Positions 16,275 through 61,164 of a stretch of DNA of 64,000 bases are shown piece by piece (positions within the stretch are counted from its first letter, which is position 1; every line of letters begins with the position of its first letter). Origin of the DNA: Papaver somniferum (taxonomy: Eukaryota > Streptophyta > Magnoliopsida > Ranunculales > Papaveraceae); NCBI RefSeq assembly GCF_003573695.1, contig NC_039361.1:86074149-86138148 (forward strand). Direction: 5' to 3'. A program made the position numbers and the translations under genes. The notes beneath the pieces are model-generated. The model did no database searches and had not been told where the DNA came from. It saw nothing but the letters and a program-made list of their open reading frames with translations.

Positions 16275-16276
16275 GA

Positions 16277-31237: not shown

Positions 31238-31240
31238 ATC

Positions 31241-33152: not shown

Positions 33153-33154
33153 AA

Positions 33155-36679: not shown

Positions 36680-37097
36680 TAGCACGTAATGATAATGCCA
36701 TTGCGGGATAAGCATTAGATTGTGACAATAAAATAAATTCACAAGAAAAGTTTCAGTGCGTGTTACCAGGATAGAGTCTGGCTCGTCTCTTGGACAAGAT
36801 ACATTCCTTTTATCGCACGGCAGTTGTCCTCAGATATTTAGATAAGCGTATATCTGATTGCTATCCCGCATATGGAGCCTTTATAGACGGAGAGTAGACA
36901 CACCTTCTCTTCCCGGGACCTTGCTGATTTGTGAAATATAAAGAAGACGCTGAGGCTTTTCCTCTCATCATAAAATTGCTTTTCTTCTTTATTCCAGGTA
37001 TTGCTCCATATTTATCATGCAATTTGGTCTTCTGACTGCTGACGATTATATATATACCATCTATTGATATAATCACAACTCCTTCTTTCAGTATACC
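36680..37097 (+). promoter_or_regulatory. Upstream region of the E4 antisense gene
   Basis: A TATA-like TTATATATATACC occurs at 37047-37058 and an acceptor-like TTCTTTCAG at 37083-37091, directly before the ATG at 37098. An upstream leader exon cannot be placed with confidence. The layout parallels E1 and E3. Confidence 0.4.
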
Positions 37098-37740
37098 ATG
37101 GAGACTGCTGGAAATGACCATTTTGTTACCTCTCCGAAAAAAGCTTCGAAGTTGACAAACCTGAGGCCGATGCGCTCGAGGAGGTGATGGCCAATAGGTT
37201 CTCCATTTCGCGAAGCCAATCATGCTATACAGGGTATGTCTCTTCTGCACTTGAGTATCGTTCGGGAGCGTACTCAATCTTTTTTTGGCTTCAGTCGAAA
37301 TGAAAGAGAAATGGAGGCATGATGAAGCGTCACAGATGCCAAGCGCAAGAGCTGAGAGATTTACAGCTCTACTGAAGAGGCGAAGGATAGAACATAAGCA
37401 GCCTTCCGGTGAAAACAAGTGTGATTATCCGATCCACAATGGCGTAATAATCCTCGACTCTGAAGTGGACGAACCCGGACATCCAAAGGTTGTTAGCACA
37501 ATTTCTGAAAAGGACGCTGAAGAGACTTATGGAGAGGACGTCGAAGCGGAAAAATGTGTTGGTGCATCTTCCGAAGGAGAAGACGCGACGGTTCCTGGGG
37601 AGGATGCTGAAGTAACATCCAAAATGGAAGTTTGAGGAAGATCCTGGAGAGGGTGCAGTAGCAGCTCGTGATGAAGGTATTATGGCAGCTTCTGGTGACG
37701 ACTCTGGTGAAGGCACTGTCAATCTCTCTGTTGGCTAGAT
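37098..37740 (+). pseudogene. Antisense gene of E4, acidic protein without PMD
   Basis: ATG at 37098 opens METAGNDHFVTSPKKASK; after one shift near a run of A at 37135 the text reads EVDKPEADALEEVMANRFS and reaches a donor-like ACAGG/GTATGT at 37231. An acceptor TTGGCTTCAG ends at 37294. The second exon encodes EMKEKWRHDEASQMPSARAE, a basic KRRRIEHKQ patch that may be a nuclear signal, and an acidic tail with repeated EGEDATVPGEDAEV-like text. A stop at 37635 is followed by more readable codons (EEDPGEGAVAARDEG) in another frame. No PMD block is present. I do not recognise the family. Position and intron show it is the E4 counterpart of the PMD genes. Confidence 0.55.
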
Positions 37741-38552
37741 ATCCTCTTTTGCTATCTCTTTTTTTTAGCTGAGTAATTCTTTGTATCTTGTTAACATTTT
37801 CTTCTTTCACTCAGTGGCGGCTGAGTTTAAGTTAGGCTCCTTTCTTTTGGTTCGAACACTAGCCTTTATTCATGTCATCTTGAGATCTTGACTGCGGATC
37901 TTTATTCAGAAGGGCTAGAATCTTCCCATTTCATCATCGTGTCGCCACCCCTTATATGTGACTTGTGGGCTGTCTCTATGATGATTGCTCATGACCTCAA
38001 AAAATAATGAAGGGGATGCAATAATAGAAATCAGAGATCGGCCATGAACTTGCATGTCCTCTAATTGATGACACTTTGCAATCCACCTAACCCTGTGGTG
38101 ATCGAGAGGCCGCTTTATTGTTGGAGTAAACTGCTCTTTGAGCGCTTGCCCTAGCAGTCATACATTTCTTTTGCACTTCCTTCTTTCTGCGCGTATCCCT
38201 TCAATGTTTCCCAGATGAGATGTCTCTTTTGGGTTTTTAGGGTTCTGTCTTCTAGTTTGGACTGATAGGCGATGATGAGGGTTTAGACCGGCTGAAGACT
38301 TTGTGTCATGATTTAGGGGTAAAAATATTTCTAAAAGAAACAATACTTTGATTAATTGACAAACTAAAACCCTAATAATCATGAATTCAACCAATGCAAT
38401 CATTTTGGAGGAATTACAAATATTGCATGAAATGGGAAATTGTTGGAAGAAATACTACGGAAAATGTTGGAGGAAAGGTAGCACAACGTTTTAGGTATGA
38501 AGAACGCTGGAGGAAAAGGTAACACTGCGTTTTAGGTATTGTAGGGCTTGAT
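37741..38552. other. E4 interior between antisense gene and gag end
   Basis: About 800 bp with no sustained frame. The minus frame 38158-38403 lacks a recognisable motif. T-rich runs after 37740 may be the antisense 3' end. Bases 38290-38530 contain two GCTGGAGGAAA-type repeats (near 38430-38520), a match to the tail region after gag in E1 and E3 in composition only. Confidence 0.4.
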
Positions 38553-41196
38553 CTATCGTAAGTGAACCTTGACACCTTCCATTTTGTCAGCGTTGATGAG
38601 CTTGCAGTAACCGCCGAAGATAACATCTGCCACCGGGTATGGTTCGTCTTCCTTTTCTGCAGGAAAATCGGTCTGAGCGGTAATTTTCACTGTCATGTCT
38701 CCAACTCGAAACGTGGTCGTCTTCACTACCAAATATCCAATTTGAAATGGGGTTGGGCGTTGTACAACTACTTGATTCTGAGACCCGTTGCCTTTGACTG
38801 AGGCAGCTTTTAAATTTTTGATAAAACATTTGAAAGGACCAGCATCCCATTCACATCTCCTAGTGGCGGCAGGGTTGTTGATCGAAGCGAGTCCGGGTTG
38901 TTCAACAAGACTTACTTGGGCTCGGAACCTTCGAAGGTATGATGACTGGATCTCTCCAGGAAGTTGCGTCACATTTGTGAGTGGTCGATATGGCAGCAAG
39001 TAGTCCTCGGGATCGGATGGCTTATTGGAGATCCTCTCAGGTATAGATATCGGCAAAGGACATACACTTTGCCTTGTTGTCGTGTATCCATGAGCGCCCC
39101 AGGACCAGATCATAGCTTATATACTCTTTAACTGTATGAAATTTAGCGTGTATTAGAGCATCTCCCACCTTAATTTCAAGATCGATGTACCCATAAGCAT
39201 CTCGGGCTTCTCCTTCTGAATTTTTGATTATGGTTGGGCTGTCAACAACTTCCTACTTTGAAACCTTTGCAGCTCTCAAAGTCTTGATGGTGACAATGTT
39301 GAAATCAGAGGTTGCATCAATCAGCGTGTCGTCGAACTCAACATCCTTCAAATGGGCGACGGTTAAGATTCCCCAGTTGCATTTATTAGTCGCGCTTTCT
39401 AAGAAAGATTGGGGTTTGGGAACGACCTCTTTGACTGGAAATAAATGTTTGCCTGCTACAATACGATTGAGGGATGCAAATATGTCTTGTGCTTTGGATA
39501 AATACAGGATTTCACATAAATGCTCCATCATACACTGTACGGTTTTGTGGACGGAGTCCCCAGAAATCATGCAACTCCTGACAGGAAGAGGATCTCTGTG
39601 AACGCCTTTGTTCTCTAATTGGAGTTCTCCCGCATCCACTTTTACTTTGAAAATGCGTTTCAACTTGTTGCAATCACTAGTTGGGTGATTGACGAACCTA
39701 TGGTAACGGAAATATTTGGGATTTGCCATTTCTTCCTCGGTTGGTGGACCCTTGAGAGGAGCTATCTTGATGGCGTCATCTTGAATCCATGCTTCCAGGA
39801 GTTCTATGACCTCGTTCATTGGAAATGGGAAGTCCGGTGCATCATCTCCAGTTTCTTGTGCAGGAGTCTTAACGGTTTTCCAGGATGAGGTTGTCTGTAC
39901 CGGTGCTGCACGCTTGGGTTGTTGTTCCGCCGCTATAGATTTCATTTTTACTCCTTTACCTACCACGCTCACAGAAGGACCGGGGTTATATTGCTTGTTG
40001 ATGAGACGTTTGTTTCCTCGAGTTTCGCGTGCATCTTCACCCCTGGCCGGCCTGTCTCTCTCCAATAGCACTGGTGCGGTTGTAGCCGAACGCTTAGCGA
40101 CTTCATGGAGTTCGGAAAACGTCTGGAAACGCAATTTTTCCAGTAAAGCACGATATATTGGAACCATGCCATTAACGAACGATTCCACCAACTGCTGCTG
40201 AGTCACGTTTGGTTCATGACAATCTAAAGCTTGAATTCTGAATCTCTTGACGTAGTCGTTTGGATGTTCATTGTTCCATTGAAACATTCGTCCTATGTCT
40301 GGGAAAGTGATTTGCTCAGACACAAAGAAATATTTCTCATAGAAAGCGGTGATCATCTCACACCAGTTGGATATGCTGTTTGGTGGGATTTTATTGTACC
40401 AGGTGTATGCTCTTCTAGTAAGTGACTTTGAAAATTCCTTTAGGCGGAGGAATGGTTGTATTCATGGTACCCCAAAGATTCCAGAAAACGAGAGATATGT
40501 TCACGAGCATTACCAATGTCATCATAGAGGGAGAATTGAGGAGAGGAGTATCCCCTCGGAAGAGGAACCCTTTGCACGTCAGGAGGGTACGGAGGTTGAT
40601 GCTGGTGCATGTCCACTGGATTTTCTTTGCCTCGATTTTGGAGGAGTTGCTCCAAATCCTCACGCGTAATGAAATTGGATGGATGATTCATCTCCCACGG
40701 TCGTTCAGGAACAACACGCACTTCTTCATCTATAACGGCTTTCCCTGTTGAAGTACTTGCACCAGGAGTGTTAAAAGTAGTCCTTATTGGCTCTGCAGGT
40801 TGACGCGGCTCTTGTGGTAACCGCTCCGTTAATGTCTTGAGAAAAGTGATCACCTTTCTGAGTTGTAGCCATGTCCATTTGAGACCTAGAAAGAACTTCT
40901 TTCCTATCCATCAAATCAACAATACTAATAGGGGGTTGTCCTCCTAAGATTCCTCTGGCCCCTCGTCCTGACGGGGGTGTGGCAGCTGCTCTGGCTCTGG
41001 TGATAGGAGATGTCACGCCTGAGGGAATATCTCCTGCTCCGCTGGTGTTGGTGGTAGAGTACGTAGTTCCACCAGATGCATTGATCGTATTGATAGGATG
41101 CACGGTAGCGCCACTGACAGGGACATCAACCCCGAGAGTGTTGTGAGTGCTAGTTCCATCGGAATTGGTTTCCGATCCAGACCTAAGATCCACCAT
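38553..41196 (-). pseudogene. E4 gag-protease with integrase C-terminal-like end
   Basis: ATG at 41196 opens MVDLRSGSETNSDGTSTHN; a frameshift near 40850 separates it from FITREDLEQLLQNRGKE and PLPRGYSSPQFSLYDD. From 40356 a 367-residue frame has YEKYFFVSEQITFPDIGRMF and DYVKRFRIQALDCHEPNVTQ (capsid), YFRYHRFVNHPTSDCNKLKR (zinc-like), and protease-like LIDATSDFNIVTIKTL, where D-A-T-S replaces the active-site motif. A further frame has YDLVLGRSWIH-like text and then SSYLRRFRAQVSLVEQPG (linker). It ends with ADVIFGGYCKLINADKMEGV, similar in layout to the GPY/F-like end of E1 and E3. At least three frameshifts. RT, RNase H and the integrase core are absent. Confidence 0.8.
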
Positions 41197-41258
41197 TTTG
41201 AAATCAGGAAAATCGAATTGGGTATTGAAAAATTGACTTTCACGACCGAGAAATTAAT

Positions 41259-41276
41259 CTCCCACTGTGATCGCCA
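41259..41276 (-). promoter_or_regulatory. E4 primer binding site
   Basis: The minus strand reads TGGCGATCACAGTGGGAG, one base different from the E1 and C' sites. It lies 2 bp from the LTR start at 41279. Confidence 0.8.
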
Positions 41277-41278
41277 GT

Positions 41279-42042
41279 TGTTTGAGGGTAAAAACTGGTT
41301 CTTCTGTTTTTGGTAATTTTGGGTGTGTTGATGAGAACAAATTCAAACCTTAAACAATGCACTGCACGGGAGTACTTTCAGATTCGAGAGATCAATCTGT
41401 AAGACTCTGGCCTAAACCAAGAAATGGTCGTTCCAGATTCAATTCGGTCACAAAGTGAAGGAAATGGGGTTGATCATATGGAGCGAAGCGAAGAAGGTAT
41501 TTGAGATCAAAATATTGAATTATGAAGGTTTGGATTTTTTATGACTTGTATCAGAATGTGGAACTGGCTTGCATAATGTAATCTATCAGTTATGGGTGTT
41601 TTCTGGATATTATGATGATAACACTTGGTCTGTTGTTGAAATAGGTTGAAAAACCTATTTATACAAGTCATTTGAGCGCAACCCTGATCTCGTAGGAAGT
41701 GGAGGAAGTTAATTAGTGGAGTAGTGGGGCCGTGTAAGAAGTGGTGATCATCACGTGGTCACATATTCGTCCACTACTCTCATCGTTGTTAACCGTCCAT
41801 CTTTTCCCAACACGTTCACATAATGGGCGCGTTGCAGCCCGCACGCTGTAAATCGCCAGACCAATACCCCAGTAAGTATCCCTAGTTTGTGACATGTTTG
41901 ATGTCTCGAGTGAATGGGTCAAGTCGTGGGACTTTGCCGCAAATAATAGCATATGATGTTATTAGGTTAAATAACCAAGTTATTTATGAAGCCGATATTT
42001 ATCAAATATCGTATGTATTCGATGCATGTGAAGTATCGCTTT
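41279..42042 (-). repeat. E4 5' LTR, inner part
   Basis: It starts TGTTTGAGGGTAAAAACTGG and matches the start of the C' LTR (33155). It is interrupted at 42043 by E3. The last five bases, CTTTT (42038-42042), are the target duplication of E3. It continues at 56566. Confidence 0.88.
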
Positions 42043-42926
42043 TTGTAGATGGGGAAAAACGATTTGCTGGTTTTTACGGAATTGAGGAGACGTCCGTGTG
42101 GAGACTTCTTGAACCGAGTGAAATGTTGAACCTCACACAGATGCACTGCAACAAGGGAGTTCTTTAAGTTCGAGAGATCAATATGTATGACTCCGTCCTA
42201 AACCAAGAACAATGGTCGTTCCAGAGTCAATTCGGTCACAAGAGAGGATGGGTTGATCTGTAGGAGGGAAGCTGAGAAATGTGTGGGATCAATTGTGATC
42301 TGAGATTGTAGGAGTGTTGTGAATTCAGCGTAGGAAAGTTCTGAATGATTGAATTTTTACTCAATTGAGAGTGATTGCTCAGACGATGAGTTCGTGTAGA
42401 CGAAAGATTGTCTGTATGAACTTGCTGAGAAAAATTGCTTGTCCTTTCAATCATGATTCAGAGGTCTTTTTCTATTGCTAAATTGAAAACACCATGATCC
42501 CATGAAGTGTGACATTTGCTGCAATCAAAAAGTGTGGAAGTGGGAAATCATGTCAAAAACCAGTTGCTCATCATGCGGAGACTTGGTTAACTTTCCACCC
42601 ACTACTTTGCTGACTCTTCCAACTGATTGCACGACTTTTTCACATTCTCGTCGTGTGTATGAACACACATGTCGTAGACCGCCAGACCAAAACCCTAGTT
42701 AATATCCCCCATGTGACACGATTGATGTCTCGTGATTGTGGAGTCAGTTGCTGACTTTATGGGACGATGAGTTCATGTATTTCTGAATTGAACATGATTT
42801 GTAAATGTTCTGAAACTCATGAATTAAGTGTCTGCTGAGACGAGGTATTATTATGTTGATAACCTAAGACGAGCAAGTGTTGGTGAATTGTTGAATATTG
42901 ATAGTTGAACCAATATTCTTTAATCT

Positions 42927-43002
42927 GAGCAAATATTGTTGGTTTGAGCAAATATTGCTAGTCTGAGCAAATATTGCCGGTTTGAGCAAATATTGCTCGT
43001 TT
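42927..43002. repeat. 19-bp tandem repeat, four copies
   Basis: GAGCAAATATTG begins at 42927, 42946, 42965 and 42984, a strict 19-bp period with variable spacers (TTGGTTT, CTAGTCT, CCGGTTT, CTCGTTT). The other LTR of the same element has three copies (54243-54299), and E1 has about two. Copy number differs between LTRs that were identical at insertion. Confidence 0.92.
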
Positions 43003-43758
43003 GATGAATTGTTGGTAGCATGACCAAATAAAACATTAATTTAAGTTATTTACTGTTGGGTCGAGTGTAATAAATAAAAGTGTTGATCATGGGATCAACA
43101 TAAAATTATCAGAATTTAAATCTGCTCAGAATCCCGTTTTTGCAGAGCTCTGGATTCAAAAACCTTAATTTTAATTAAATTGATGATTTATTGAAAATAA
43201 ACCGCACAAAGAGAAGGGACCGGCTACCTGGGATGATAAGTCCACCATGTAACGCCCAGATGCTCGAATGAGCAAAATACCAAAGTCTCTTGGGGACCAG
43301 TTGGTGAAAGAATGATTAAATGCTGGTTTAATCATTTATTGAAATAATGCTCATGTGGGCGTCAGATAATAAAGCCTAGTCATGAAAAGATGAGGGACTG
43401 ACCAAGAGGTCATGAGACTGGCTCTTGGTGGACGTGGGACCAATTGATGGTCGTTTGAGAAAACCCTCAATTGTTTGAAAAGAGTTTGAACCTAATATGA
43501 GCAATTGAGCAAATTAGGTTAAAATCATTAAAACGTGTGGGACCGATTGGTTGCAAGACTTAAGGCCACCCTTGGTCGGTTAAGGGGATGTGCCCGTGTC
43601 TCCATAGTGTCCGTGTCTCAGTCCTGAGAGTTTCAATATTTTCCGATGCGCGTTTGAGCAACATTTTGAGAAAATATGCAGAATCCAGGGTTTTGCTGAA
43701 ACTAGGAAAAATACATGAGATGATGAAAAATAATAAATAAAACAGGGAATTGCAATGC

Positions 43759-44580
43759 GTGGGACCGTCCACGGCTAGGGCATGGCCGGCTGACAAGCAC
43801 GGTCCCACACATTTTCCCAGTTTTATGTAATTTTATGTAGTTTCTATGAATTGAGGGAAATTCCATGAAACTAGAGAGTTTTATGAAATTAGGGAACTTC
43901 CATGAGATCAGAGAAATAAAATAATAATAAAATAGGGAATGATGGAGTGTGGGAATGACAATGGCAATGGCCAAGGGCATGGCCAGCTGGCCAACAGGCA
44001 CGGTCCCATGGCACTCTTCCCAATTTTATGTAATTTTCATGATTTTAGGGAATTTTCATAAAATCAAAGAGATTTGTAGAAACCAATGTATTTTGTTGAA
44101 ATCAAGGAGTTTTGTTGAAATCAGGGAGTTTTCATGGAATGAGGAAAACAAAACAAGTAATAATAATAAAATAAGGGGCACGTGGACCGGCTAGGGCATG
44201 ACCGGCCGGCTAGAGCCCGGTCCCACGGTTTCCCTAATTTTACAATAATTTTCATGGGTTTAGGGAAAATTCATGAAATCAGGGAATTTTCATGGGATGA
44301 GGGAAATAATAAAATAATAAGGAACCGTGAAGTATGGGACCGGCTAGGGAATTACCGACCGGCTAGTGGGCTTGGTCCCGCGACACCTTTCCTAATTTTA
44401 TTATTTCTTTGACATAAGGAAATATCATGAGTTTAGGGAATTTCCTTGAAACGAAGGAGAATTGCTCAAATGAAAGGATTTTCATGTGATCAGAAAATAA
44501 TAAAATGTGATAAAATATAAAATTGGGTGCGGACTGATCACGGCATGAATGGTCGGCTGGTGAGCCCAGTCCCCTGACGC
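43759..44580. repeat. Hairpin-bearing repeat units in the E3 LTR
   Basis: Units occur near 43759, 43951, 44179, 44336 and 44527. The first has perfect 10-bp arms, GTGGGACCGT (43759-43768) and ACGGTCCCAC (43799-43808). Others pair GGACCGG with CCGGTCC across a loop rich in GGCCGGC. The last is more diverged. The counterpart in the right LTR spans about 55065-55855. Confidence 0.8.
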
Positions 44581-45291
44581 CTTTGCAAATATTTTATTAT
44601 TATTTTTTTCTTCCTATTTTGCATAGGTTCATCATTCCTTCGTGTTCTGAAATGCTCGTTCGCGCATTCAGATGCTGGTCTGTGCATTATTGCTAAACAC
44701 ATTTACACCATTTTAGTCAGGGCTTATTCGATACTCAGATGCCTGTATGTTGAATATCTATTACTAACCCATGGAATTCTGCTGGGAAAACCATAAATTG
44801 AAGTAACGAAACATTCGAAGAACCGTAGAATATAGTTGAATATTCAACTACGATTAGAGATAATTAATTGAGGTCTCTATACTAGCATGGCTTCCTATCT
44901 AGGAGCATTAATTATCTGAGAGTTGAGAAATATGAACTTTTTGGAGTGTCATATTTCTCCTAGATAGTCAGGGAAAACCTGGTTGCATCCTGAAGATGTT
45001 GTTGCTCTATACTAGCAGGCATGCTGTCTAGGAGCCATCCAATCTTTCGATTCTATACAGAAATAATTACTGAAATTGCTCAGTATTCATGAGATGTGCC
45101 GTGGCCTCAGCTGAGAGACTACACATCTACATAAACTCTGAGAGACAGCCTTCTCAGTCAGAGGTTTTATGGCATGAGCTTTCACGCTTTATTTAGAGAC
45201 ATGAGTCTCAATACTCATCTGATTGTCGGATCCGGAGTATGTATAATTATGGTTTTACTGTTTTACCCTTGTCGAAAATCCACCATCTACA

Positions 45292-45305
45292 TTAAGTCCC
45301 CTGCT
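45292..45305 (-). promoter_or_regulatory. E3 polypurine tract
   Basis: The minus strand reads AGCAGGGGACTTAA directly before TGTAGATGG. Same position and sequence as in the other copies. Confidence 0.75.
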
Positions 45306-45590
45306 TAGTGAGGGACAGTCATGTTCCTCAGTCAGCATTGAATGGTGATTTTCCAGGTACTGACAAAAATTAGTAATTGAACTTAAAAAGATAAGATATT
45401 ACCGGATTTTGACTGAATGAGAAAACTATGATTTGAGAAAAACCCCAGTGGCATAATAGAGCGTCATCCAGAGAGCATAAATTGATATAGAACCGCTGAT
45501 TTGATGACGGGTCCTTGGTCGTTTTAGGATTCATGGGCCGGGCCCGATAAGGAAATCCTTGTGAAATTAGGTTTTGGAAATAAAATTTGA
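45306..45590 (+). other. Upstream region of the E3 antisense gene
   Basis: No open frame. The stretch aligns by eye with 9959-10249 of E1, including GAGCGTCATC and GGTTTTGGAAATAAAATTTG just before the TATA box. It is the likely proximal promoter. Confidence 0.45.
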
Positions 45591-45763
45591 TATAAAAGGA
45601 AATTAATCCTTTTTTTTTAATTTCTTCCCACAGGACCACCTCCTTCATCTCCTTCCTCCCTTCACGTTAACTGCAGAAGAGAGCAAGGGAAAATCGTCGG
45701 AGCGCCGACCGCCGTCCGACTGGAGCCACCACCGTCCGGCCAACTTCCGGCCGGCGCCGACAG
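45591..45763 (+). promoter_or_regulatory. Antisense TATA box and 5' UTR exon of the E3 PMD gene
   Basis: TATAAAAG at 45591-45598 is a consensus plant TATA box. It is followed by a pyrimidine-rich leader (CCACCTCCTTCATCTCC) and a consensus donor CAG/GTAAGT at 45764. A small second leader exon is possible: TTATTGCAG ends at 46400 and GTAAGG follows at 46474. The final leader acceptor is ACATTACAG ending at 46612, just before ATG at 46626. Confidence 0.65.
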
Positions 45764-46625
45764 GTAAGTGATTTTTTTTTCAAAAACTTGATGTTTGTTC
45801 ATGAGTTGTTCATCATAAAAATAATATGTGTATATACATACTTTTGGATGTGAGTTTTATGAAAAACCCTTGTTTTAGGAACGTACGTCCATTCGATCGT
45901 TAGTTTAAGAAACTAGCAACAATCCCTAACTTGAGAGAGATTTTTATTTTGAAATAAAATTGTGTCCAGTGATAAAATTTTGTTTATGAGCTTTCATGGA
46001 AACCAGAACTTTATCTTTAAAAGATGTGAGCTTTTCACAAAACTGAAAGAAACCTTCGTTTTAAGGAAAAACAATCGTACGAAGGAAAAGAGACTTTTTT
46101 TTTAATATGTGAAACCGTGGAGCTTCACAAGGACATTTTATTTTTGATAAACTCACGTGATCCGGAGCTCGCGTAAAAAAAAAAACAATTACGTGAGTTA
46201 ATCACGGTTTTTCATTGTTTCGTAGAATCAAAACATGGGTTTTGAGTAACCCTCGAAATTTGACAATTTATTTATGATGAAATATTGTCTTGGTGTAAAT
46301 TTCATATCTCCGTTGTGGATGTTTATACTATGAAAATTATGTCTACGATTTTATGAAAAATCAATTTCGAAAATTAATAAAGCTTCGTTTGTTATTGCAG
46401 GTTTCAAGGAACAAACTAATTTCGGAGTGTTAACTCTTGCGACACTATCACTATTGTTAGTGGAATTGTAAAGAGGTAAGGGCTAAGATTTACCATTTTC
46501 GTAGATGTCTCCATAAGTACCTTGTTGTCAGATTATATGATCCCATCATATTGTCGAAGTTTGCACCTGATATGACGATATACTAAACTAGAATGCTTTG
46601 TGCACATTACAGCTTCTTCGCAAGG

Positions 46626-49600
46626 ATGTCTGACTCCCAGGAAAATGACTCTTCCAGATATGATACGTGTATGGATGAGACTTCTATTGGTGATGAAGAA
46701 GAAGAAACACCTGGAATCAAAAATGTTCCAAATATAGATGATGCATTCTTCGCGGTTCAGCAACGCGCTGAAAGACGTCTCAGAACTCCAGCATTTCATC
46801 TTTTGATAAATCCCAGAACGGTTATTCAAAATAAATTGGTGACTCCTCGAGCATTCAGTTTTTCCTTAAATGACGACTTTTCCTGGCCTCAATTATAGAA
46901 TTCAGGCTCTCTCGAATACCTTTAGAGAAATTCTCCGGATGGGAAAGACACATGCTGGGTTTTCCTCGTGTTAGAGCTATGCTAGATAGAGCACAGGTTA
47001 CCAGCGCTATTCAATCATCCGAAGATTTGTATATCTTTCACGATGCGCGAGGTATTGTGGCGCTTCTTGCTCGCTGGTGCATTCCAACTCATACCTTTAT
47101 ATGTAGTTGGGGAGAGTTTACTATTACCTTGGAAAATGTAGTTGCTTTATTTCATCTTCCAATCACAGGTAACTTTCCTGAAGAGCTTTCGACGGAGGAG
47201 AAAGCAATTTCCAACACCTTAACAGCTGAGATGCAGAGAATTAACAAGGCTTCTGTCAAAGGTTGTTATGCTCACTGGTTAACACACTGGTGGCCACGAG
47301 ATGTCCCTTTCAACGAACCTGAGAGTATGTTGTCTATTACTGCTTTCTTGTGTTTATGGCTGTCCAGGGACGTGTTTGAAGACGCCGAAACTTTGCTAAA
47401 GCCATTTGTAATCCCTTTTTCTATTAAGATGGCTCAAGGTGAACAACTTCTCATATGTAGCTTATTCTTGGGTTCTTTGTACTCTAACCTGGACTCCTTG
47501 GTTATATACTCCAGTGTTTCGAACGGCTTTATGAAGATTGAATGCTATGCCAATACGATGTTTCTCCAAGCCTTGATGTGGGAACGCTTCGAGAAGTATG
47601 CACCAATTCCCCGTAGTATCTTGCAAGGGTTGAATGCTGCTGATCTCGACGTATTTTCTCCGAGAAGGATAACGCCAGGATTATGCGTTGGTCAACAAAA
47701 CAGCTTCAATCCAAGACGCGCTTCATTGATGTAGTAGACAATGAGTCTGAGTTTAGCCTCCGTCCCTGGATGTTGATTCCTCCTCATGTTTCTCAATTGA
47801 TAACTTTCAATGTTGGAGAAAGCATGGCTTTGAAATCTGGTACTGACTTGAGAGATGGAGAAAGATCTTTCATGTTGAGCTGCACTCCAGGTTATCTAAT
47901 AACATCAACATATGGAGACTTTTCGGTGGAGGAATACAACATTGACAGAGCAGCCCGTCAGATGGGTATGGATCAATGCGTTCCAACTTTTCGGAGGAAA
48001 AAACCATCGGTGGAACAGAATAAGACTTGTTTAGACCGTACACATGTCGAAAGAAGCTCTTATTGGTTCCCCTGTGCTGACCGAGTTACATATGTAACTC
48101 CGGGTTATATAGATTTCTGGAACCAGCAATTTAAACGCTTATATGATTTCGTTAAGGTTAGTCAACCTTTGGTGAAAGAGCCTCCTTCTGATGATATGAT
48201 TGCTTCTCGACCCAGATTGAAACACATCTCCGACGGTGATAAGAGAAAGACATATCCAGGATGTTCAACAGTATGTATCTTTTGCACATTCTTTGTAAAA
48301 TTGAAATAATTTCCTTTGATTATCACCTCAATTTCTTTTGCAGTACGGTCGTGCTGTGAGACCTCGTATTGAAGTGAATTTCTCAGAAGCAGAAACAGTT
48401 ATTCACGGTGGAGAAGGTAGGAACAAGAATTGTAAGTTGCTGCCTAACACCATAAAGTCCCCAGTTGTTTCTTTGGTGAGTTGTCGACACTTTTCCGCCG
48501 TGACTTCTTCTATCCGTATTACTAGGATCGTAAAACCAATATTTTTTATTTGGTTACATAATTTTGCTCCGTCTAGTATTGATGATCTTTGATTATCTGC
48601 TGTTGGGCAGACAATTTCTGATTTGAGCGTTGAAGAAGAAAATGATGTGAGCACTCTTCCTCATAGCCAAATATAATGCTTCATATGTAAAATGCTAATT
48701 TTTGAGAATATGTCCAGGAGGATGTCTCTATGGAGGTGGAGAGTGTTGATACTCGGTTATCCTCTCAGAATAGAGATGAAGGAAATTCCCAAGGTTCGAA
48801 ACCGAATGGAAGTAATGATCCTCTTGATGCTGACACGGGCAATTACAATTCCTTGAATGCTTCAGAGACTCCACAAGTAAGTATATCTCCTGTAACCTCT
48901 TCATAGAAGTATGGAATTTCTGATTTGTGAATGAATGAATGAGGATCCATGTGCATATACGAAAAACTTTGTCGAAATTCGTCGTCAGAAAATTCAGAAC
49001 TTTAACTTTTAGTAGAAACGCAGTAGAGTCTTCGTTTGAAGTCGGATTTTCATGGTCTGCATATTATCTTTAAGACCGGAGAATTTACAAGATTTACCAA
49101 TGAAGCTTTTTAAGTTTTGAGCACGTTCAGGACTTGAAAAATGCTAAACAGTAAACTTCCAGGAGACTTCAGAACTTTTCAAACTGTATGTTGTCCAATG
49201 TTTCGACCACATCCCCTTTCTCGTCCATCGGATTGTTATGAAATTTTTATATGTGGTAGAGAACATCCATACGAAGAGAATGGTATATAACTCATCCTCA
49301 TATTCCTTGGATATTTCTCCCAGTTCATCTTCTTGTACAGGGCAGAGTAAAATCTCTTCGGTTGAGCTTGTCGCAGAATGTGTTTTCATGTCTTTCACGC
49401 TATTTGTTCGTATATTGAGTGCACAATGATGAACCTTGATGATGTTGGACTGCTTGTATGCTGTAATTTATGATCCTATTTGGTTCCATGTCTAGATTGC
49501 TCTAACCTCATGTAATCTTCGTATTAGGTACCAACTACCGAAGTTCAGGATACTGAAATCAATAATGATAACGCGAGCAGCCATGGAGTTATTGATGAAG

Positions 49601-50271
49601 AGATAACCATCCCTGCACTTCGAGGCCATGAGAGGGTTGTTACTGAAGTTATGGAAACCTCGATTGTTGCTACTCCAGTAGTAGAAGAAACCGAGCCACA
49701 AGTAAAGGAGATTGAAGAAACTGCTTCCATGACCGTAGAAGTTTCTCCAGTAATTGAGAACCGTATAGTGGTGCATGAATATCCAAGTGCAGGAGTTTAT
49801 TTTTATCCTCCATTTGATGCATCGCTTCCACATCATGAAGTTGGTAGATTCAGCGTTCCTATTGGATATGCAGGCTTGTACGAGAAGATATGGAGGAAGT
49901 TTGGTCACATCATTGTTACCAGAGACCCTGGACGCGCTTATGATTTAACAATGAAAGTAAGTGTCATCTTGCGTGTTGTAAGTGATATATGCACTAGGGC
50001 CAGAAATACTGTGACTCCAGATATACTCTTTAATTGGGAGTTCAACTTGGAGAATTCTAAAAGACTTGGCTTCAACGTGAAGTGGCTTCGTAAGAAGATA
50101 GATGCAATCAAGAGCTCGTGTGAAAATAACATACCCTTTCCCAATGATGTTGTGATGGAGAAGGAGGAAAAGATTGCTAAGCTGACTGAGGCGTTGAACC
50201 TTGAGAAGGCGGCTTTGCAAATATTGAAGGATGCAGAGGAGCAAAAGTCTTTCTTTGATGACTTTCTTTAA
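46626..50271 (+). pseudogene. Plant mobile domain gene of E3, five coding exons (two frameshifts)
   Basis: Exon 1 (46626-48270) begins MSDSQENDSSRYDTCMDETS. A frameshift near 46850 interrupts it; from 46952 a 260-residue frame holds the PMD signature: FPRVRAMLDRAQ, then CIPTHTFICSWGEFTITLEN and LPITGNFPEE, then FVIPFSIKMAQGEQLLICSL. A second shift near 47670 leads to a 208-residue frame with DGERSFMLSCTPGYLI and YVTPGYIDFWNQQ. Introns: 48271-48343 (GTATGT..TTTTGCAG), from 48476 (GTGAGT), 48647-48717 (GTGAGC..TCCAG), 48877-49527 (GTAAGT..TATTAG). The acceptor before exon 3 is changed (TTACAT, where E1 has TTGCAG), so CAG at 48610 may be used. Exon 5 (49528-50271) is open, with YEKIWRKFGHIIVT and a coiled-coil tail ending FFDDFL. 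The gene lies antisense to the element. PMD proteins are plant nuclear factors or transposon passengers; the role here is unknown. Confidence 0.85.
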
Positions 50272-50565
50272 TCTCTTTTCATAATCTCTTGAACTTTTAA
50301 ACTTCTGAGAGATGTGAGGTTTTATTTTGGTTTTGATATTGATTGGTTTTGGATTGGTAGATGATTGAGGATTTTCTTTTGGATTTGATAGAGATTTTCT
50401 TTAAGTAAAATGAATTGAATTTTGATAAATTGCTGAATTCAAATACTGAATGTAAGTATTGCAAACGTTTTGGAGAAATTGAAATACAGTGAAAGAAAAT
50501 CCTAAATGCCGAATCCCAGGTGTCATGAATGCTCAAGCGCCCAGTACTTTAGACGTCCAATAACT
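50272..50565. other. Convergent gap between antisense PMD gene and gag in E3
   Basis: 294 bp separate the two stop codons, on opposite strands. No frame. The same layout occurs in E1 (28140-28454), with recognisably similar sequence (GAGATTTTCTTTAAGTAAA). Confidence 0.5.
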
Positions 50566-53300
50566 TCAGGCGTCAAATGCCTTAAGCCAATTTTCGTGGA
50601 TTACTGGTAGGGTCCTACCATCAGTGTTGATCAACATGTAGTAGCCCCCGGTCATGGATTTATCAACCACGAATGGCCTTTCCCAATTGGAATTTCTTGC
50701 AGAGTGGAGGTTGCGCTGGGTTGCTTTGAGAACTAGATCTCCTTCACAAAATTTGTTAGGTTTAGTTGTCCGCGCCTTGAATATCTTTTGTTGATTCGGA
50801 ACTCCTCGTGTGGCGGGATTCCAAGACTGTGGCACATATGGACACTCATGCAAAGGGGAGTATCCAGAGTACTGTCTGTCACGCTTAGCCATATCTTCAG
50901 CAATGAACCTTTTGATAGAATGATCGACTTGATGGGGATCTGTGCTTAACCATTTGGTGTAATATTGTTGAGGTGAAGATATCCACTCGTAGATTTTTGT
51001 GATTGCTAAGTTGTTAGTGGGAAGAAGTCCCCGAATCATAGCAACATAATTAACCATTGGTAGTGCAGGCGCATGAAGAGGAATTAGACTTGCCTGAGTT
51101 CGGAACCTTTCGATGAAAGAGTGTGCACTTTCTCCGGGTTTCCGTGCTAATTCCACCAAAGCTTTAACTTCCTCCAGGTATTCGAATGATGGAATATCTT
51201 CTATTTCTTCTGAGTTGGAGCTTTCTTCAATTGAAGGCATTAGAGCCACTTTTGCAGCATGAACCCAAGGTCGTCCAAGAATCATGTCATATCCTGGATC
51301 TTCCCGGATTATATAAAACTTGGCTTCAGTACAAACCGAGTTTTCTCTTACCTTAAGAGTGATGTAGCCATACGCATCTCTGAGTGTCCCTTCGTGATCC
51401 CTGATTGACATGGGAGCATGAGTAGCTTCTTGTCGAGTAATTCCAGCGGCTCTGAGAGTTTTCAAAGGAATGATGTTGATGGCAGTGCCCATCAACAAAT
51501 GTTCTCTGGAATTTGTTTCATTTAATATGCATTGTGGTGAGCAGTCACCAGTCATACATTTCTTTTTCAGTGGCTGGAGGTTCAGGAGGTACTTCTGGAA
51601 TTAGTAGACGCTTCCCAGATACTATGTGGTTCAAATCCATGAACATGTATCCCCTTTGTTCCTTCGACAGATAGAGCAATTCGCAGACATGCTCGATCAA
51701 TGACTGAACTGCGTCTTTGACTGGTTGCTCAGATATGAAGAAAGTTCTGACTGGGAGAGGATCTCTGTGTAATCCTTCATCCCCCAGATTAAGTTCTACT
51801 GACTCAACCTTTTCCCTGAATATGTGTTTCCAAACTTTGCAGCTACTTGTGGGGTGATTGACGAACCTGTGAAAGCGGTAGTAACGAAGATTTTCCATGT
51901 CTTCCTCAGTTGGGTCATTCCTGACATATGACAATTTGATTGCACCATCTTGGATCCAGGAATCCAGTAGTTCGAGCACCTCTTTAATTGGAAGGGGAAA
52001 GTCAGGTGCGTCTTGATCAGGAGCCTCTGTACGTTGGCCAGGGGCTTGTGCATCTTGTTTATCCTTCTTTTGTGTTTTTGAAGGAGCTGAGGTATGTTTA
52101 CGCGGAGGTTTGGCTTTTTGTTTGCTCCTTTCTGCGACAACATTTGTGGAAGGCTGCAGGTTGTACTGCTTGTTGATCAGACGTCTGCTTCCTCGAGTGT
52201 CTCGTGATTCTCCAGCCTTTGTAGATTTTGCTCTTTCCAGTAGAGCAGGTGCAGTAGTTGCCGATCTCTTTGCTGCCTCATGAAGCTCCGAGAAAGTCTG
52301 GAAACGAAGATTTTCCAGTAAAGCTCTGTATATCGGGATCATGCCATTGATGCAAAAATCTACCGGCTGTTGCTCCGTGACATTGGGGTCATGGCAGTCC
52401 AGGGGCCTGGACTCTGAATCTTTTCACGTAGTCATTGGGATTTTCACTGACCCTTTGAAACATTCTTCCAAGATCAGAGAGAGTTACTTGCTCTGACATG
52501 AAGAAGTACTTCCTGTAAAAGGCGTTAATCATTTCTCCCCAATTGTTGATAGTTCCTGGTGCGATGTTTTTATACCAGGTGTATGCCCTACCTTTCAAAG
52601 ATTTTGAAAACTCATTGAGGATAACAACATGGTTGTGTTCATGTTCTCCCAAGGCTTTCAGGAAAAGAAATACATGTTCTCGAGCATTGCCAGTTCCATC
52701 ATACAGAGTGAAGGTTGGAGAGGTATACCCTTTTGGAAGAGAAATCTTTTGCGTAGCAGCAGAATATGGAGGTTGATGATGATGGACATGTGATGTCTTG
52801 TCTTTTCCATGATTCTCCAAGAGGCGTTCCAAATCTTCTCGAGTAATAAAATTTGATGACTCTCTCGCCGATGGATCGTCTGCAGCTTTGCGGACTTCAC
52901 TGTCATCCACTGTATGAATTGGAACTACTTCAGGATCAGCATCTGAGGATGTTTTCTTTTCTTTTCCCTTTCCTTGAGCCTTCTCTGACATCTTGTTAGT
53001 GAGAGTCTTGAGATAATTGAATAGCTCTTTCTGTGTTGCAGCCATGTCAATTTGATTATTCGTAAGAGTCTCTTGCACTTTGATGAGATCATCCATGGTA
53101 GGTGGTGGATTTCCCCTGACTTCCTCAGGGTGTCGGCCAAACAGGGGATGACCTTACATGTTAGCGTGAGGAGGAATAACATCACCACCGTCAGTGTTAG
53201 AGGTCGGAATGGTTTCCGGGATATTCTCATTGTTGTTGTTGCCAGTGCTAGCATCGTTTGTGTTGGAACCTATAACTAACCCAGACCTAAGACCAACCAT
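50566..53300 (-). pseudogene. E3 gag-protease-integrase C-terminus
   Basis: ATG at 53300 opens MVGLRSGLVIGSNTNDAST. A stop lies near 53154. A frame from 53096 has KVQETLTNNQIDMAATQKEL, FITREDLERLLENHGKD, LPKGYTSPTFTLYDGTGN and FSKSLKGRAYTWYKNIAPG (Retrotrans_gag core). A shift near 52390 precedes IPIYRALLENLRFQTFSELH and RYYRFHRFVNHPTSSCKVWK (zinc-like). A shift near 51550 garbles the protease start, where the active site reads MGTAIN in one frame. From 51555 a 329-residue frame carries protease remainder (YDMILGRPWVH), linker SAHSFIERFRTQASLIPLHA and integrase C-terminus NWERPFVVDKSMTGGYYMLI, in one uninterrupted frame. That fusion replaces RT, RNase H and the integrase core. At least one stop and two shifts. 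Confidence 0.87.
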
Positions 53301-53336
53301 CTTGTGAAATTGTGAGATTGGAACCGAGAGATTAAT

Positions 53337-53354
53337 CTCCCACTGTGGTCTCCA
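53337..53354 (-). promoter_or_regulatory. E3 primer binding site
   Basis: The minus strand reads TGGAGACCACAGTGGGAG, one base different from the E1 site (TGGCGAC). It lies 3 bp from the LTR. Confidence 0.8.
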
Positions 53355-53357
53355 ATC

Positions 53358-56300
53358 TATAGATGTGGAAAAACGATTTGCTGGTTTTTACGGAATTGAG
53401 GAGACGTCCGTGTGGAAACTCCTTGAACCGAGCTAAATGTTGAACCTCACACAGATGCACTGCAAGAAGGGAGTGCTTTAAGTTCGAAAGATCAATATGT
53501 AGGACTCCGGCCTAAACCAAGAACAATGGCCGTTTCAAAGTCAATTCGGTCACAAGAGAGGATCGGTTGATCTGTAAGAGGGAAGCTGAGAAATGTACGT
53601 GATCAATGGTGATCTGAGATTGTAGGTGTGTTGTGAATTCAGCGTAGGAAAGTTCTGAATGATTGAATGTTTACTCAATTGAGAGTGATTTCTCAGATGA
53701 TGAGTTCGTGTAGGCGAAAGATTATCTGTATGAACTTGCCGAGAAATATTGTTTGTCCTTTCAATCATGATTCAGAGGTCTTTTTATATTGCTAAATTGA
53801 AAACACCATGATCCCATCAAGTGTGACAGTTGCTGGAATCAAAGAGTGGGGAAGTGGGAAATCATGTCAAAAACCAGTTGCTCATCGTGCGGAGACTTGG
53901 TTAACTTTCCACCCACTACTTTGCTGACTTTTCCAACTGATTGCACGACTTGCTCACATTCTCGTCGTGTGTATGAACACACGTGTCGTAGACCGCCAGA
54001 CCAACACCATTGTTAATATCCCCCCATGTGACACGATTTTATGTCTCGTGATTGTGGAGTCAGTTGTTGACTTTATGGGACGATGAGTCCATGTATTGCT
54101 GAGTTGAACATGATTTGCAAATGTTCTGAAACTCATGAATTAAATGTCTGCTGAGACGAGGTATTATTATGTTGATAACCTAAGAAGAGCAAGTGTTGCT
54201 GAATTGTTGAAAATTGATAGTTGAACCAATATTCTTTAATCTGAGCAAATATTGCTAGTCTGAGCAAATATTGCTAGTCTGAGCAAATATTGCTCGTTTG
54301 ATGAATTGTTGGTAGCAGGACCAAATAAAACATTAATTTAAGTTACTGACTGTTGGGTCGAGTGTGATAAATAAAAGTGTTGATCATGGGATCAACATAA
54401 AATTATCAGTATTTAAATCTGCTAAAAATCACGTTTTTGCAGAGCTCTGGATTCAAAAACCATAATTTTAATTAAATTGATGATTTATTGAAAACCAACC
54501 GCACAGAGCGAAGGAACCGGCTACCTGAGATGATAAGTCCACCATGTAACGCCCAGATGCTCGAATGAGCAAAATACCAAAGTATCTTGGGGACCAGTTG
54601 GTGAAAGAATGATTAAATGCTGGTTTAATCATTTATTGAAATAATGCTCGTGTGAGCGTCAGATAATAAAACCTAGTCATGAAAAGATGAGGGACCGACC
54701 AAGAGGTGATGAGACCAGCTCTTGATGGCTGTGGGACCAGTAGATGGTCGTTTGAGCAAACCCTCAATTGTTTGAAAAGTGTTTGAACCTAATATGAGCA
54801 ATTGAGCAAATTAGGTTAAAATCATTAAAACGTGTGGGACCGGTTGTTTGCAAGCCTTAAGGAGGCCCTTGGTCGGTCAAGGGGATGTGCCCGTGTCTCC
54901 ATAGTGTCTGTGTCTCAGTCCTGAGAGTTTCAATATTTTTCGATGCGCGTTTGAGCAACATTTTGAGAAAATATGCAGAATCCAGGGTTTTGCTGAAACT
55001 AGGAAAAATACATGAGATGATGAAAAATAATAAATAAAACAGGGAATTACAAGGTACCGGACACGGCTAGGGCGTGGCCGGCTGACAAGCACGGTCCCAC
55101 ACATTTTCCCAGTTTGATGTAATTGAGGGAAATTCCATGAAACTAGAGAGTTTTATGAAATTAGGGAACTTCCATGAGATCAGAGAAATAAAATAATAAT
55201 AAAATAGGAAATGATAGAGTGTGGGACTGGCAATGGCAATGGCCAAGGGCATGGCCAGCTGGCCAACGGGCAGGGTCCCATGGCACTCTTCCCAATTTTA
55301 TGTAATTTTCATGATTTTAGGGAATTTTCATAAAATCAAAGAGATTTGTTGAAACCAAGGTATTTTGTTGAAATCAAGGAGTTTTGTTGAAATCAGGGAG
55401 TTTTCATGGAATGAGGAAAAAAAACAAGTAATAATAATAAAATAAGGGGTGTGTGGACCGGCTAGGGCATGACCGGCCGGCTAGAGCCCGGTCCCACTGT
55501 TTCCCTAATTTTACAATAATTTTCATGGGTTTAGGGAAAATTCATGAAATCAGCGAATTTTCATGGGATGAGGGAAATAATAAAATAATAAGGAACCGTG
55601 AGGTATGGGACCGGCCACGGCCAGGGAAAGACCGGCCGGCTAGTGGGCTTGGTCCCGCGACACCTTTCCTAATTTTATTATTTCTTTGACATAAGGAAAT
55701 ATTATGAGATTAGGAAATTTCCTTGAAACGAAGGAGATTTGCTCAAATGAAAGGATTTTCATGAGATCAGAAAATAATAAAATATGATAAAATATAAAAT
55801 TGGGTGCGGGACTGGTCACGGCATGACTGGCCGGCTAGTGAGCCCAGTCCGCTGGGGCCTTTGCAAATATTTTTTTTCTTCCTATTTTGCATTAGGTTCA
55901 TCATTCCTCCGTGTTCTGAAATGCTCGTTCGCGCATTCAGATGCTGGTTTGTGCATTATTTCTAAACACACGTGCACCAATTTAGTCAGGGCTTATTCGA
56001 TGCTCATATGCATGTACGTTGAATATCTATTACTATTCCATGGAATTCTGCTGGGAAAACTATAAATTGAAGTAACAAAACATTCGAAGAATCGTATAAT
56101 ATAGTTGAATATTCAGCTATGATTAGAGATAATTAATTGAGGGCTCTATACTAGCAGGGCTTCCTATCTAGGTGCATTAATCATCTGAGAATTGAGCAAT
56201 ATGAACTTGTTGGAGTGTCATATTTCTCCTGTATAGTCAGGGAAAACCTGGTTGCATCCTGAAGATGTTGTTGCTCTATACTAGCAGGCATGCTGTCTAG

Positions 56301-56560
56301 GAGCCATCCAATCTTTCGACTCTATACAGAAATAATTACTGAAATTGCTCAGTATTCATGAGATGTGTCGTGGCCTCAGCTGGGGGACTACACATCTATG
56401 TATACTGTGATAGACGACCTTCTCAGTCAGAGGGTTTATGGCATGAGCTTTCACGCTTTATTTAGAGACATGAGTCTCAATACTCATCCGATTGTCGGAT
56501 CCGGAGTATGTATAATTATGGTTTTACGATTTTGTCCTTGTCGAAAATCCACCATCTACA
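53358..56560 (-). repeat. E3 5' LTR (3203 bp)
   Basis: It runs from TATAGATGTGGAAAAACG to CCACCATCTACA. The inner terminal dinucleotide is changed (plus-strand TG to TA), so on the element strand it ends TA in place of CA. It otherwise matches 42043-45291 with scattered differences, one fewer 19-bp unit, and a few small indels. Confidence 0.93.
54243..54299. repeat. 19-bp tandem repeat, three copies
   Basis: GAGCAAATATTG starts at 54243, 54262 and 54281. This is one unit fewer than the partner LTR at 42927. Confidence 0.92.
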
Positions 56561-56565
56561 CTTTT

Positions 56566-58630: not shown

Positions 58631-58693
58631 ATTCTGTCCTCAGACTCAGATTGCTACAAACACAGACTTGTAAGGTCTTGAACGTGTTTGCCG

Positions 58694-58705
58694 GCTCTGA
58701 TACCA
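58694..58705 (-). promoter_or_regulatory. Primer binding site, initiator Met tRNA type
   Basis: The minus strand reads TGGTATCAGAGC, 2 bp from the LTR edge at 58708. About 65 bp of leader to its left matches 2765-2811, for example GCTACAAACACAGACTTGTAAG. The rest of the interior is gone. Confidence 0.9.
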
Positions 58706-58707
58706 AT

Positions 58708-61164
58708 TGAAAAAGCGGGGGTCTAACAACACCACCCAATATTTAGCTTAGCAATCTGTATGGAAAAACTCGAATATACTTTTAAGAGAATCAACAAGAC
58801 TCAATCAACTAAAAGTATATCAACGAGTTTATATCTCTCTCTTGATTTGATTTACTCAAGTAGGAACTGCGAGTTCTAATCAAATGCAAGGAATAACTTG
58901 GATGGTACCAAAGACCAATATGCAAGGATCAATCAATGAAAATCAACAACCAAAGGTTGGATTACTATAATTGATGATCTAACGCACAACTTGTATGATT
59001 TCAATTATAAAGATAAAAAAAATATAATGTGGAAATTGAAATAACACAGACACCAGAAATTTTGTTAACGAGGAAACCACAAATGCAGAAAAACCCTAGG
59101 ACCTAGTCCAGATGGAATACACACTGTATTAAGCCGCTACAGACACTAGCCTACTCCAAGCGAACTTCGGATTGGACTGTAGTTGAACGCCAATTAGTCT
59201 CCCACTGATCCAAGGTACAGTTGTACTCCCTACGCCTACGATTCCAGCAGGATACTGCGCATTTGATTCCATTAGCTGATCTCACCCATAACTAAGAGTT
59301 GGTACGAGCCAAAATCATAGGCTTTGACAATAAACAAATCTGTCTCACACAGACAAGTCTATCAAAGTATCAATCTGTCTCCCACAGATAAACCCTAAAG
59401 GTTTTGTTCCGTCTTTTGATAATAATCAAGGTAAACAGGAACCAATTTATAATCCGGTCTTATATTCCCGAAGAACAGCCTAGATTTATCAATCACCTCA
59501 CAACAATCTTAAATGTATGGTAGTGAAACAAGATGTTTCGGATTCACAAACAATGAGATGAATATGTTTGTGATTACTTTTTATATCTTGCCTATCAGAG
59601 ATATCAATCTCAAGACAATCAATCTGATTGTACTCGTACAATATAAGATGCAAGGTCAGATCACACAACTACGATAAAAGCAGTATCCGTATGGCTTCAT
59701 AATCCCAATGAAGTATTTAAGTCGTTAAACTGGTTTTAGAAGAATAAATCCAAAGGTTAAAGGAGAAACGACTCTAGCACTCAAACTAGTATCACACGTA
59801 AGGTGTGGGGATTAGTTTTGCATAATACTAGATGTCTCCTTTATATAGTATTTAAAATCAGGGTTTGCAATTAATTTACCTTGGTAACAAAGAAATCAAT
59901 ATCCACCGTTAGATAAAACCTGATTTAGATTCAAGCTAATATTTCTCAACCGTTGGATCGAAAACTTAGCTTGTTACACACACTTGACAATGCACGTTTC
60001 TAGGTTTGTTAACCGTACCCAAATGTATGCACTTGTTGGTTCAACAACAGTTAACCAAAAAGGTTAGCCATATGAGCATTTCATATCAACCATGTTCTTC
60101 TTCACCATAACTAGTTCAAATGACTTCAAATGAACTAGTTAGAGAGTTGTTCAATTTCAAGGAAATTTTATGTACTCACAATTGAAGCAAAGATGATTTG
60201 ATTCACTTGAATCGGTTCATGAACTTTTATAGCCACGGTTTGCAAACTGCATTCCTTAGTATTTTTAAGTTTAAGTACAAAAATCATCTTCAGATATATA
60301 ACCTTCTCAAGTTCGCAGACTAGGTTCGCGGACTTAAGTTACCGGGCAGAGTTTACAAACTCCAGCAGAAATTCTCGGGTATGAGAACTTCGCAAGTTCG
60401 CAGACTGGGTCCGCGGACTGAGTTCGCGGACTTAGCTTCACGCAAGTAGTTTGTCAACTCCAGCAGAAATTCTCGGGTTTGAGAACTTCGGCAGTTCGCA
60501 GACTGAGTTCGCGGACTTGGCTCACGCCATTCTTCCGGTTCTCTTGATCAACAAAGTTCGCAAACTTTGGTTCAAGTAATAGGACTTATACATAAATGTG
60601 TTTCCACAACAATGCTTATGTCCACCATTGATTATATAATCTAAACTCTTATTTCAATCATTGAAACATTCTTAGAGGACGTTATATAGTTGTTACACCA
60701 TTTCTCGTCAAAGCAATTTTCAAGATGATTGAAACATATCATGACTTTCGTCACTAGGTAAAGATAAACTTGATCGAAGCGAAAAGCTTACCAACACATA
60801 TTTCGAGATATAGATAGGCGAGGTATACTCAGATCTAAATACCAAATGTGTTCCAAGTCTATATATATAGCATACGACTTCTTGTCTCAAAGAGTAGGAA
60901 ATAGAGTAGATAGACTTTTGAGAGATAGATAAGTTCAAGTCTTCACATACCTTTTTGTCGAGAAGTTCCACCGGTTTCTTGAGTAGTTCTTCTACTTGTA
61001 TGATGAATCACCATGAAGTCCTTGAGCTCAACTACACTTTCTATCCTAGTCCGAGACTTAGCTATAATAGACTAGAAATCAAGACTTATAGTTTTGATCA
61101 CTAACATTGACAAACATGCTTGAGATAGCAACGCATGCGAGTTCGACCGAACAATCCTCTAACA
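58708..61164 (-). repeat. Second Copia-like LTR (2457 bp), 5' LTR of a minus-strand element
   Basis: It runs, on the plus strand, from TGAAAAAGCGGGGGTCTAAC to AATCCTCTAACA. Same family as 2826-5261. The outer edge is inserted in the second RNase H of a Tat pol fragment (61165 onward). Its interior survives only as a short leader. Confidence 0.88.
60309..60567. repeat. GTWYGCRKAC-type modules, second version
   Basis: Modules lie at 60309-60338, 60394-60434, 60493-60518 and 60553-60567. They repeat GTTCGCAGAC, GTTCGCGGAC and GTCCGCGGAC. The layout and flanks (CAGCAGAAATTC upstream of each) match 4431-4597, where the 10-mers are GTATGCGTAC, GTACGCATAC and GTATGCATAC. Confidence 0.75.

Follow-up and report, generated by a model that had tools for sequence, protein, structure and literature searches.

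Self-comparison of the 64-kb window (the whole stretch of DNA that was analysed) revealed three related LTR elements, designated A, B and E3, each of which carries a plant mobile domain (PMD) sequence, reduced to a remnant in B. In all three elements this sequence and gag lie on opposite strands, and two of the three are bounded by target duplications. In E3 and A the PMD sequence forms a gene that is interrupted by four coding introns at shared positions and has been under purifying selection between these copies. According to the original prediction, a conserved multi-intron gene had been copied with its introns through several elements. Our results fit an antisense, multi-intron PMD gene copied in this way as far as the phase-0 junctions, which A and E3 have in common and which recur in a Papaver somniferum protein model (P0001), the codon-biased substitutions of exon 1 and the flat substitution pattern of the T-rich introns are concerned, but a leader intron and the copy in B bear the prediction out only in part. 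We consider it likely that the gene is an antisense, intron-bearing accessory gene of a non-autonomous Ty3/gypsy family, which is kept by selection and spliced to encode a PMD protein.

Anatomy of the three elements

The elements are probably members of a family of Ty3/gypsy LTR retrotransposons of the Tat lineage. By our own equation, A and B correspond to the elements called E1 and E2 in the original prediction.

42044-56560, sense strand minus: element E3, a complete LTR retrotransposon (LTRs at 42044-45291 and 53358-56560)
About 6.7-9.9 kb, and from about 31.2 kb: LTRs of element A, the second broken off near 33 kb
12979-26209, sense strand plus: element B, nested in intron a of the PMD gene of A, in the orientation opposite to A
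50566-53153, minus strand: gag ORFs of E3 in overlapping frames, then a protease-like part and a tail (PF03732, E=1.4e-07)
28881-31318, minus strand: gag ORFs of A, opposite to the PMD gene (PF03732, E=0.0023, under the cut-off)

The LTRs of E3 are 92.6% identical (K2P 0.057), and the element is flanked by a 5-bp target duplication (CTTTT, at 42039-42043 and 56561-56565). The LTR pair of B shows about 92% identity, with the duplication ATTGT at 12974-12978 and 26210-26214; for the LTR pairs in the window, K2P divergence is 0.057-0.075. The insertion of B has split the PMD gene of A within intron a, an event that by itself would spare the exons of A. Repeats internal to the LTRs were also observed in A (8333-9132) and E3 (43687-44443).

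The gag regions of A and E3 share 80.6% DNA identity. The protease-like part was recognized in A alone, by a weak PF13975 match (12.9 bits against a cut-off of 28.2), and the tail of the E3 gag-protease ORF, which may resemble the C-terminus of an integrase, had no match in Pfam. Besides the gag ORFs and the PMD gene, the interior of E3 between the LTRs comprises about 1.3 kb devoid of long ORFs; the layout of A is identical. As judged from the ORF inventory and the available space, gag is present in both elements and there is no room for reverse transcriptase, RNase H or integrase; E3 and A are therefore non-autonomous. In B, the inventory contained no ORF longer than 100 aa at 18450-20640. 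The tail that follows gag-protease marks the loss of pol and is common to both full copies: residues 2-344 of the E3 tail ORF align to A in two pieces. This suggests that pol was probably lost before A and E3 separated, in which case the selection on the PMD gene would have acted in a pol-less lineage.

A neighbouring gag element occupies approximately 33000-42040 (gag ORF at 39253-40461, minus strand). The sequence following its gag is weakly similar to the E3 tail, and the element yielded no match to the Papaver PMD proteins tried. At the right end of the window, the RNase H of a reverse transcriptase (61504-62055; PF17919, E=9e-22) represents a different element family, which is accompanied by repeats at 2763-5261, 58645-61164 and 62473-64000. 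A search of positions 6000-57000 against Rfam returned no match at the gathering threshold.

The antisense PMD gene and its introns

It had been predicted that E3 carries, on the strand opposite to gag, a PMD gene with four coding introns bordered by GT and AG. Both parts of this proposal were confirmed: the gene occupies the plus strand and gag the minus strand, and the borders stand at all four places.

46626-50271, plus strand: antisense PMD gene of E3, from start to stop codon, with two frame breaks, both in exon 1
46626-48270, plus strand: exon 1, containing the entire PMD domain
48271-48343, plus strand: coding intron a, of phase 0 and 73 nt long; A and E3 share its GT/AG borders, and P0001 and P0004 join here exactly
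48344-48475, plus strand: exon 2; identity to P0001 of 73% (E3) and 80% (A)
48476-48610, plus strand: coding intron b, of phase 0 and 135 nt long; A and E3 share its GT/AG borders, of which B has the donor alone; P0001 joins here exactly, and P0003 and P0004 use the donor
48611-48646, plus strand: exon 3
48647-48717, plus strand: coding intron c, of phase 0 and 71 nt long; its GT/AG borders occur in all three elements; P0001 joins within a one-residue gap, and P0010 uses the donor
48718-48876, plus strand: exon 4
48877-49527, plus strand: coding intron d, of phase 0 and 651 nt long; A and E3 share its GT/AG borders, and B has the donor; P0001, P0010 and P0011 join here exactly, and P0004 uses the acceptor
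49528-50271, plus strand: exon 5, the C-terminal tail
11284-12978, plus strand: exon 1 and the first part of intron a in A, with a frame break near the start and in-frame stops
26215-28169, plus strand: the rest of intron a and exons 2-5 in A (intron b 26378-26514, c 26548-26618, d 26781-27425)
About 20650-21800 (approximate ends), minus strand: PMD remnant of B, antisense to gag
45589-45599, plus strand: TATA-like motif of E3, at the same place in A (10248); possible own promoter
45764-46400, plus strand: possible leader intron of 637 nt, its donor GT present in A and E3 and its acceptor CAG in E3 and B

The E3 sequence at 46874-47734 matched PF10536 with 99.1 bits (E=3.8e-28) against a curated cut-off of 34.9, which identifies it as a plant mobile domain; a second piece (E=1.3e-05) falls under this cut-off.

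As had been claimed for E1, A contains GT/AG introns at each of the four aligned positions. They measure 74, 137, 71 and 645 nt versus 73, 135, 71 and 651 nt in E3, the 74 nt of intron a in A being the sum left once a single copy of the target duplication is subtracted. Every one of these borders is of phase 0 in A as well as in E3. The lengths of introns a and b differ modulo three between A and E3, and the exons remain joined in frame. Both full copies are individually broken; the A gene has, overall, one frame break near its start and four in-frame stops.

The claim that E2 keeps the borders of exons 2-4 holds for most of these sites: B retains donors b, c and d, acceptor c and an AG at acceptor a, but the AG of acceptor b has been lost. 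Most of the PMD domain and everything after approximately 49353 (in E3 terms), hence exon 5, are also missing from B.

Upstream of the coding region, the nine-base core of the TATA-like motif occurs on the plus strand of the window at the A and E3 sites only, and its conservation is suggestive of a promoter belonging to the PMD gene itself. The predicted leader intron is no more than suggested by its borders: the donor GT is aligned in A and E3 and the acceptor CAG is found in E3 and B, but this acceptor is absent from A in the alignment.

Protein models, splice sites and selection

Three protein searches yielded 9, 3 and 14 proteins, i.e. 21 different ones: 14 from Papaver somniferum, three without a name and four from other plants. 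In two of these searches, scoring was confined to the 8000 candidates with the most words in common. Judging by the best matches, the DNA probably comes from a Papaver or a close relative. The joins in the Papaver proteins are those of gene models or predictions. P0001, an NCBI model of Papaver somniferum, is the sole one of the 21 that joins at all four junctions (exactly at a, b and d, and at c within the one-residue gap). P0004 joins exactly at a and then passes from donor b to acceptor d, while in P0003 acceptor a and donor b are present and the surrounding joins differ; both models skip exon borders. P0010 and P0011 join exactly at d; in P0010, moreover, donor c is combined with a different acceptor, and the end of intron b is read as coding. 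P0019 aligns over a, b and c and is too distant for its joins to be judged, and the remaining 13 proteins reach no junction. In a tree of 20 rows, whose proteins are from Papaver, unnamed or, in four cases, distant, P0018 is the partner of E3 (support 100/98); A joins this pair less firmly (86/89), and P0003 and P0004 are placed in other groups. Provided that the models are correct, junction a would predate the split between A and E3, as would donor b and acceptor d.

An open spliced frame is not diagnostic in this case, because 558,748 four-intron combinations of conserved GT and AG leave both A and E3 open over 47674-50130. It was therefore dropped as proof of the introns, and since the open frame alone is not beyond chance, the case rests on the pattern of selection and the Papaver models. 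Donors a-d score 7, 7, 6 and 8 of 9 (among 130 conserved GTs), and acceptors a, b, c and d rank 23rd, 43rd, 56th and 6th among 136 conserved AGs by a simple score. The modest ranks of acceptors b and c count against our preferred reading, as do the read-through and skipped borders in the other models, the broken state of both full copies and the leader acceptor missing from A. The strength of the donors relative to random conserved GTs (P 9e-05) was set aside as evidence, the sites having been chosen partly for their consensus. One of the two best donors, a strong GTAAGT at 49957 that is conserved in A and E3, lies inside exon 5 and is left unspliced in P0001 and P0010; a further intron starting there was not taken up, as these two models splice elsewhere.

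GT and AG are common in this region (66 and 67, respectively, are conserved between A and E3 in 48000-49800), as would be expected if the introns were an artefact of gene finding, i.e. if islands of a decayed ORF were separated by non-coding spacers with chance GT and AG edges. We regard this as very improbable: phase 0 is found at all four places in both copies, P0001 joins at these places, and the spacers change in length modulo three although the frame across them stays joined.

The PMD gene has been under purifying selection between A and E3, much as gag. The single pair formed by these copies gives a dN/dS of 0.21 over 871 codons (bootstrap 0.17-0.26), and the values for their gag ORFs are 0.19 and 0.31. 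Within the PMD gene, dN/dS amounts to 0.36, 0.11 and 0.15 in three parts of exon 1, 0.25 in exon 2 and 0.34 in exons 3 and 4 taken together; there is no clear sign of selection at the start of exon 5 (0.62; 0.32-1.21), and its second part gives 0.29 (0.17-0.49). In the two large parts of exon 1, substitutions are distributed over the codon positions as 102/42/30 (the register being shifted by a frame break) and 33/25/78, and those of the introns are even across the three positions. Length changes are divisible by three in nine of 12 cases in exons and in three of nine in introns, and the T content of the introns is 37-38% versus 29% in exons. The introns have diverged less than the four-fold sites of exons 1-4 (0.25 versus 0.37; Fisher p=0.002). 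Slower change of the introns was discarded as a sign of RNA function, since transversions alone are non-significant (p=0.16). A coding role of intron d was also rejected, its substitution pattern being flat and two ORFs tried having no Pfam match at E 0.5.

Two of the protein models, P0002 and P0013, stop a few residues past the exon 1 border, apparently within intron a, and for this reason a shorter, PMD-only product of unspliced RNA is conceivable. Taken further, exon 1 alone might make the protein, with translation ending in intron a and the downstream exons unused, a reading with which the location of the entire PMD domain in exon 1 and the very many alternative splice sets that are open would agree. 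However, when read in the spliced frame, exon 2 shares 73-80% identity with P0001, and dN/dS is low in exon 2, in exons 3 and 4 and in the second part of exon 5, which makes this explanation quite unlikely. P0002, whose identity to exon 1 of A is 57%, had no match among solved structures at E 1, and three pattern matches in viral contigs included none related to it.

It could also be argued that the gene is real and intron-bearing but is now a passenger of pol-less elements, the signal of selection having been left by autonomous ancestors. The broken state of A and E3, the loss of most of the domain from B and the dependence of the estimate on one pair of copies would be in keeping with this. 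Nevertheless, the tail that marks the loss of pol is common to E3 and A, and the low dN/dS was measured over their split; moreover, with the LTR divergence found in the window, much of the decay can postdate insertion. We therefore think it unlikely that the gene is a mere passenger, and prefer to regard it as an accessory gene maintained by selection.

Known antisense genes and a proposed mechanism

Antisense extra ORFs, the PMD in Ogre elements and Papaver families with gag and protease only have already been published. The antisense additional ORFs of plant LTR retrotransposons known as aORF-3R (Grande gene23, RIRE2, Retand) have been reviewed by Vicient and Casacuberta (2020, PMC7264820), who propose a regulatory role for their proteins, like that of retroviral accessory proteins, and urge a look at antisense and spliced transcripts. 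The PMD coding region described here lies within the LTRs after the pol-less gag region, is antisense to gag and adjoins the 3' LTR, which places it among the aORF-3R, and it may likewise possess its own promoter, as reported for Grande gene23. In contrast, it is a PMD gene with four coding introns, and the text of that review never mentions an intron. In Retand, the available part of Vicient (2025, PMC11963269) gives antisense TRP28 (PF04195) ORFs for 97% of clusters; these are also near the 3' LTR, and some Retand elements are non-autonomous. The four antisense pieces of E3, however, had no match to PF04195, which sets them apart from Retand, and the main text of that paper contains neither intron nor PMD.

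As in Ogre, where the accessible sections of Neumann et al. (2019, PMC6317226) report a PMD in the extra ORF of 57% of elements, the domain is carried here by an element probably belonging to the Tat lineage, but the intron known in Ogre, according to the same sections, belongs to the sense gag-pol transcript. Tat elements (Ogre, Retand) are marked by an additional RNase H between RNase H and integrase, in the pol region missing here, and Ogre by a tRNA-Arg primer binding site; in the elements described here, the LTR is followed by a conserved stretch. The Papaver Retand Group I sublineages contain GAG and PROT only (PMC12582370, main text), and thus resemble the elements described here in having gag and a protease-like part, and no other pol domains, in poppy; mentions of antisense, introns or the mobile domain were not found in that main text. 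From the parts available of the respective papers, the PMD is the most frequent unusual domain in Gypsy consensuses of 121 angiosperm genomes (PMC9289625), PMD clades consisting only of Gypsy sequences exist (PMC5418596), and PMD proteins encoded by TEs have been proposed to act in counter-silencing (PMC8616336). MAIN and MAIL1 share the domain with the gene described here but, as presented in the available portions of PMC5418596 and PMC7156037, are host genes, and MAIN is drawn with introns in a figure legend.

In the literature searched, outside which most subscription papers lay, we found no description of introns in an antisense gene of a retrotransposon. What is new here is that E3 and A are non-autonomous, yet their PMD gene is under purifying selection to much the same extent as gag. 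Two surveys (PMC7264820 and the available part of PMC11963269) regard where the antisense genes of plant LTR retrotransposons come from, and what they do, as open questions. A multi-intron example under protein-level selection would mean that surveys based on ORF length can miss or truncate such genes, and would suggest that the gene was acquired and retained in its nuclear, spliced form.

We propose that the genomic RNA of E3 would run leftwards from the right-hand LTR, so that gag is represented in sense orientation and the PMD gene by its complementary strand. Introns with GT/AG borders are not removed from RNA of the opposite strand, in which the spliceosome leaves CT...AC in place. Since the genomic RNA complements the PMD gene and the introns read CT...AC in it, they would remain unspliced and so be copied into cDNA; reverse transcription, presumably by the enzymes of an autonomous relative, would then write them into every new copy. 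Transcription of the PMD gene itself would start at a promoter of its own close to the 3' LTR and proceed towards gag. The transcript would be spliced at the four phase-0 introns and perhaps at the leader intron too, and the predicted translation product is a PMD protein that ends in a C-terminal tail. Since gag and the PMD protein have both been maintained by selection, the latter probably promotes the spread of the elements. If this scheme is correct, antisense genes of retroelements should keep their introns, and sense genes should lose them.

As to how the protein might act, our favoured guess is that it interferes with host PMD silencing (MAIN/MAIL1-PP7L). The complete scenario is speculative, and we hold it to be doubtful: a pol-less family would maintain a multi-intron antisense gene with a promoter of its own, the PMD protein made from the spliced RNA would block or redirect MAIN/MAIL1-PP7L silencing, and an autonomous partner would provide reverse transcription. 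Were it true, introns, protected from loss by the copying of the opposite strand only, would be a hallmark of such antisense accessory genes throughout plants, and surveys of single ORFs would cut these intron-bearing genes into pieces.

The first part of intron d (48877-49353 in E3, about 20632-21131 in B) is 78-80% identical between B and either A or E3, whereas exons 2-4 and introns b-c of B show only 48-69% identity to A and E3, the shift occurring at the exon 4 border. Possible causes of the better preservation of the start of intron d in B are recombination, the insertion of a repeat common to these copies, or a signal carried by the genomic RNA.
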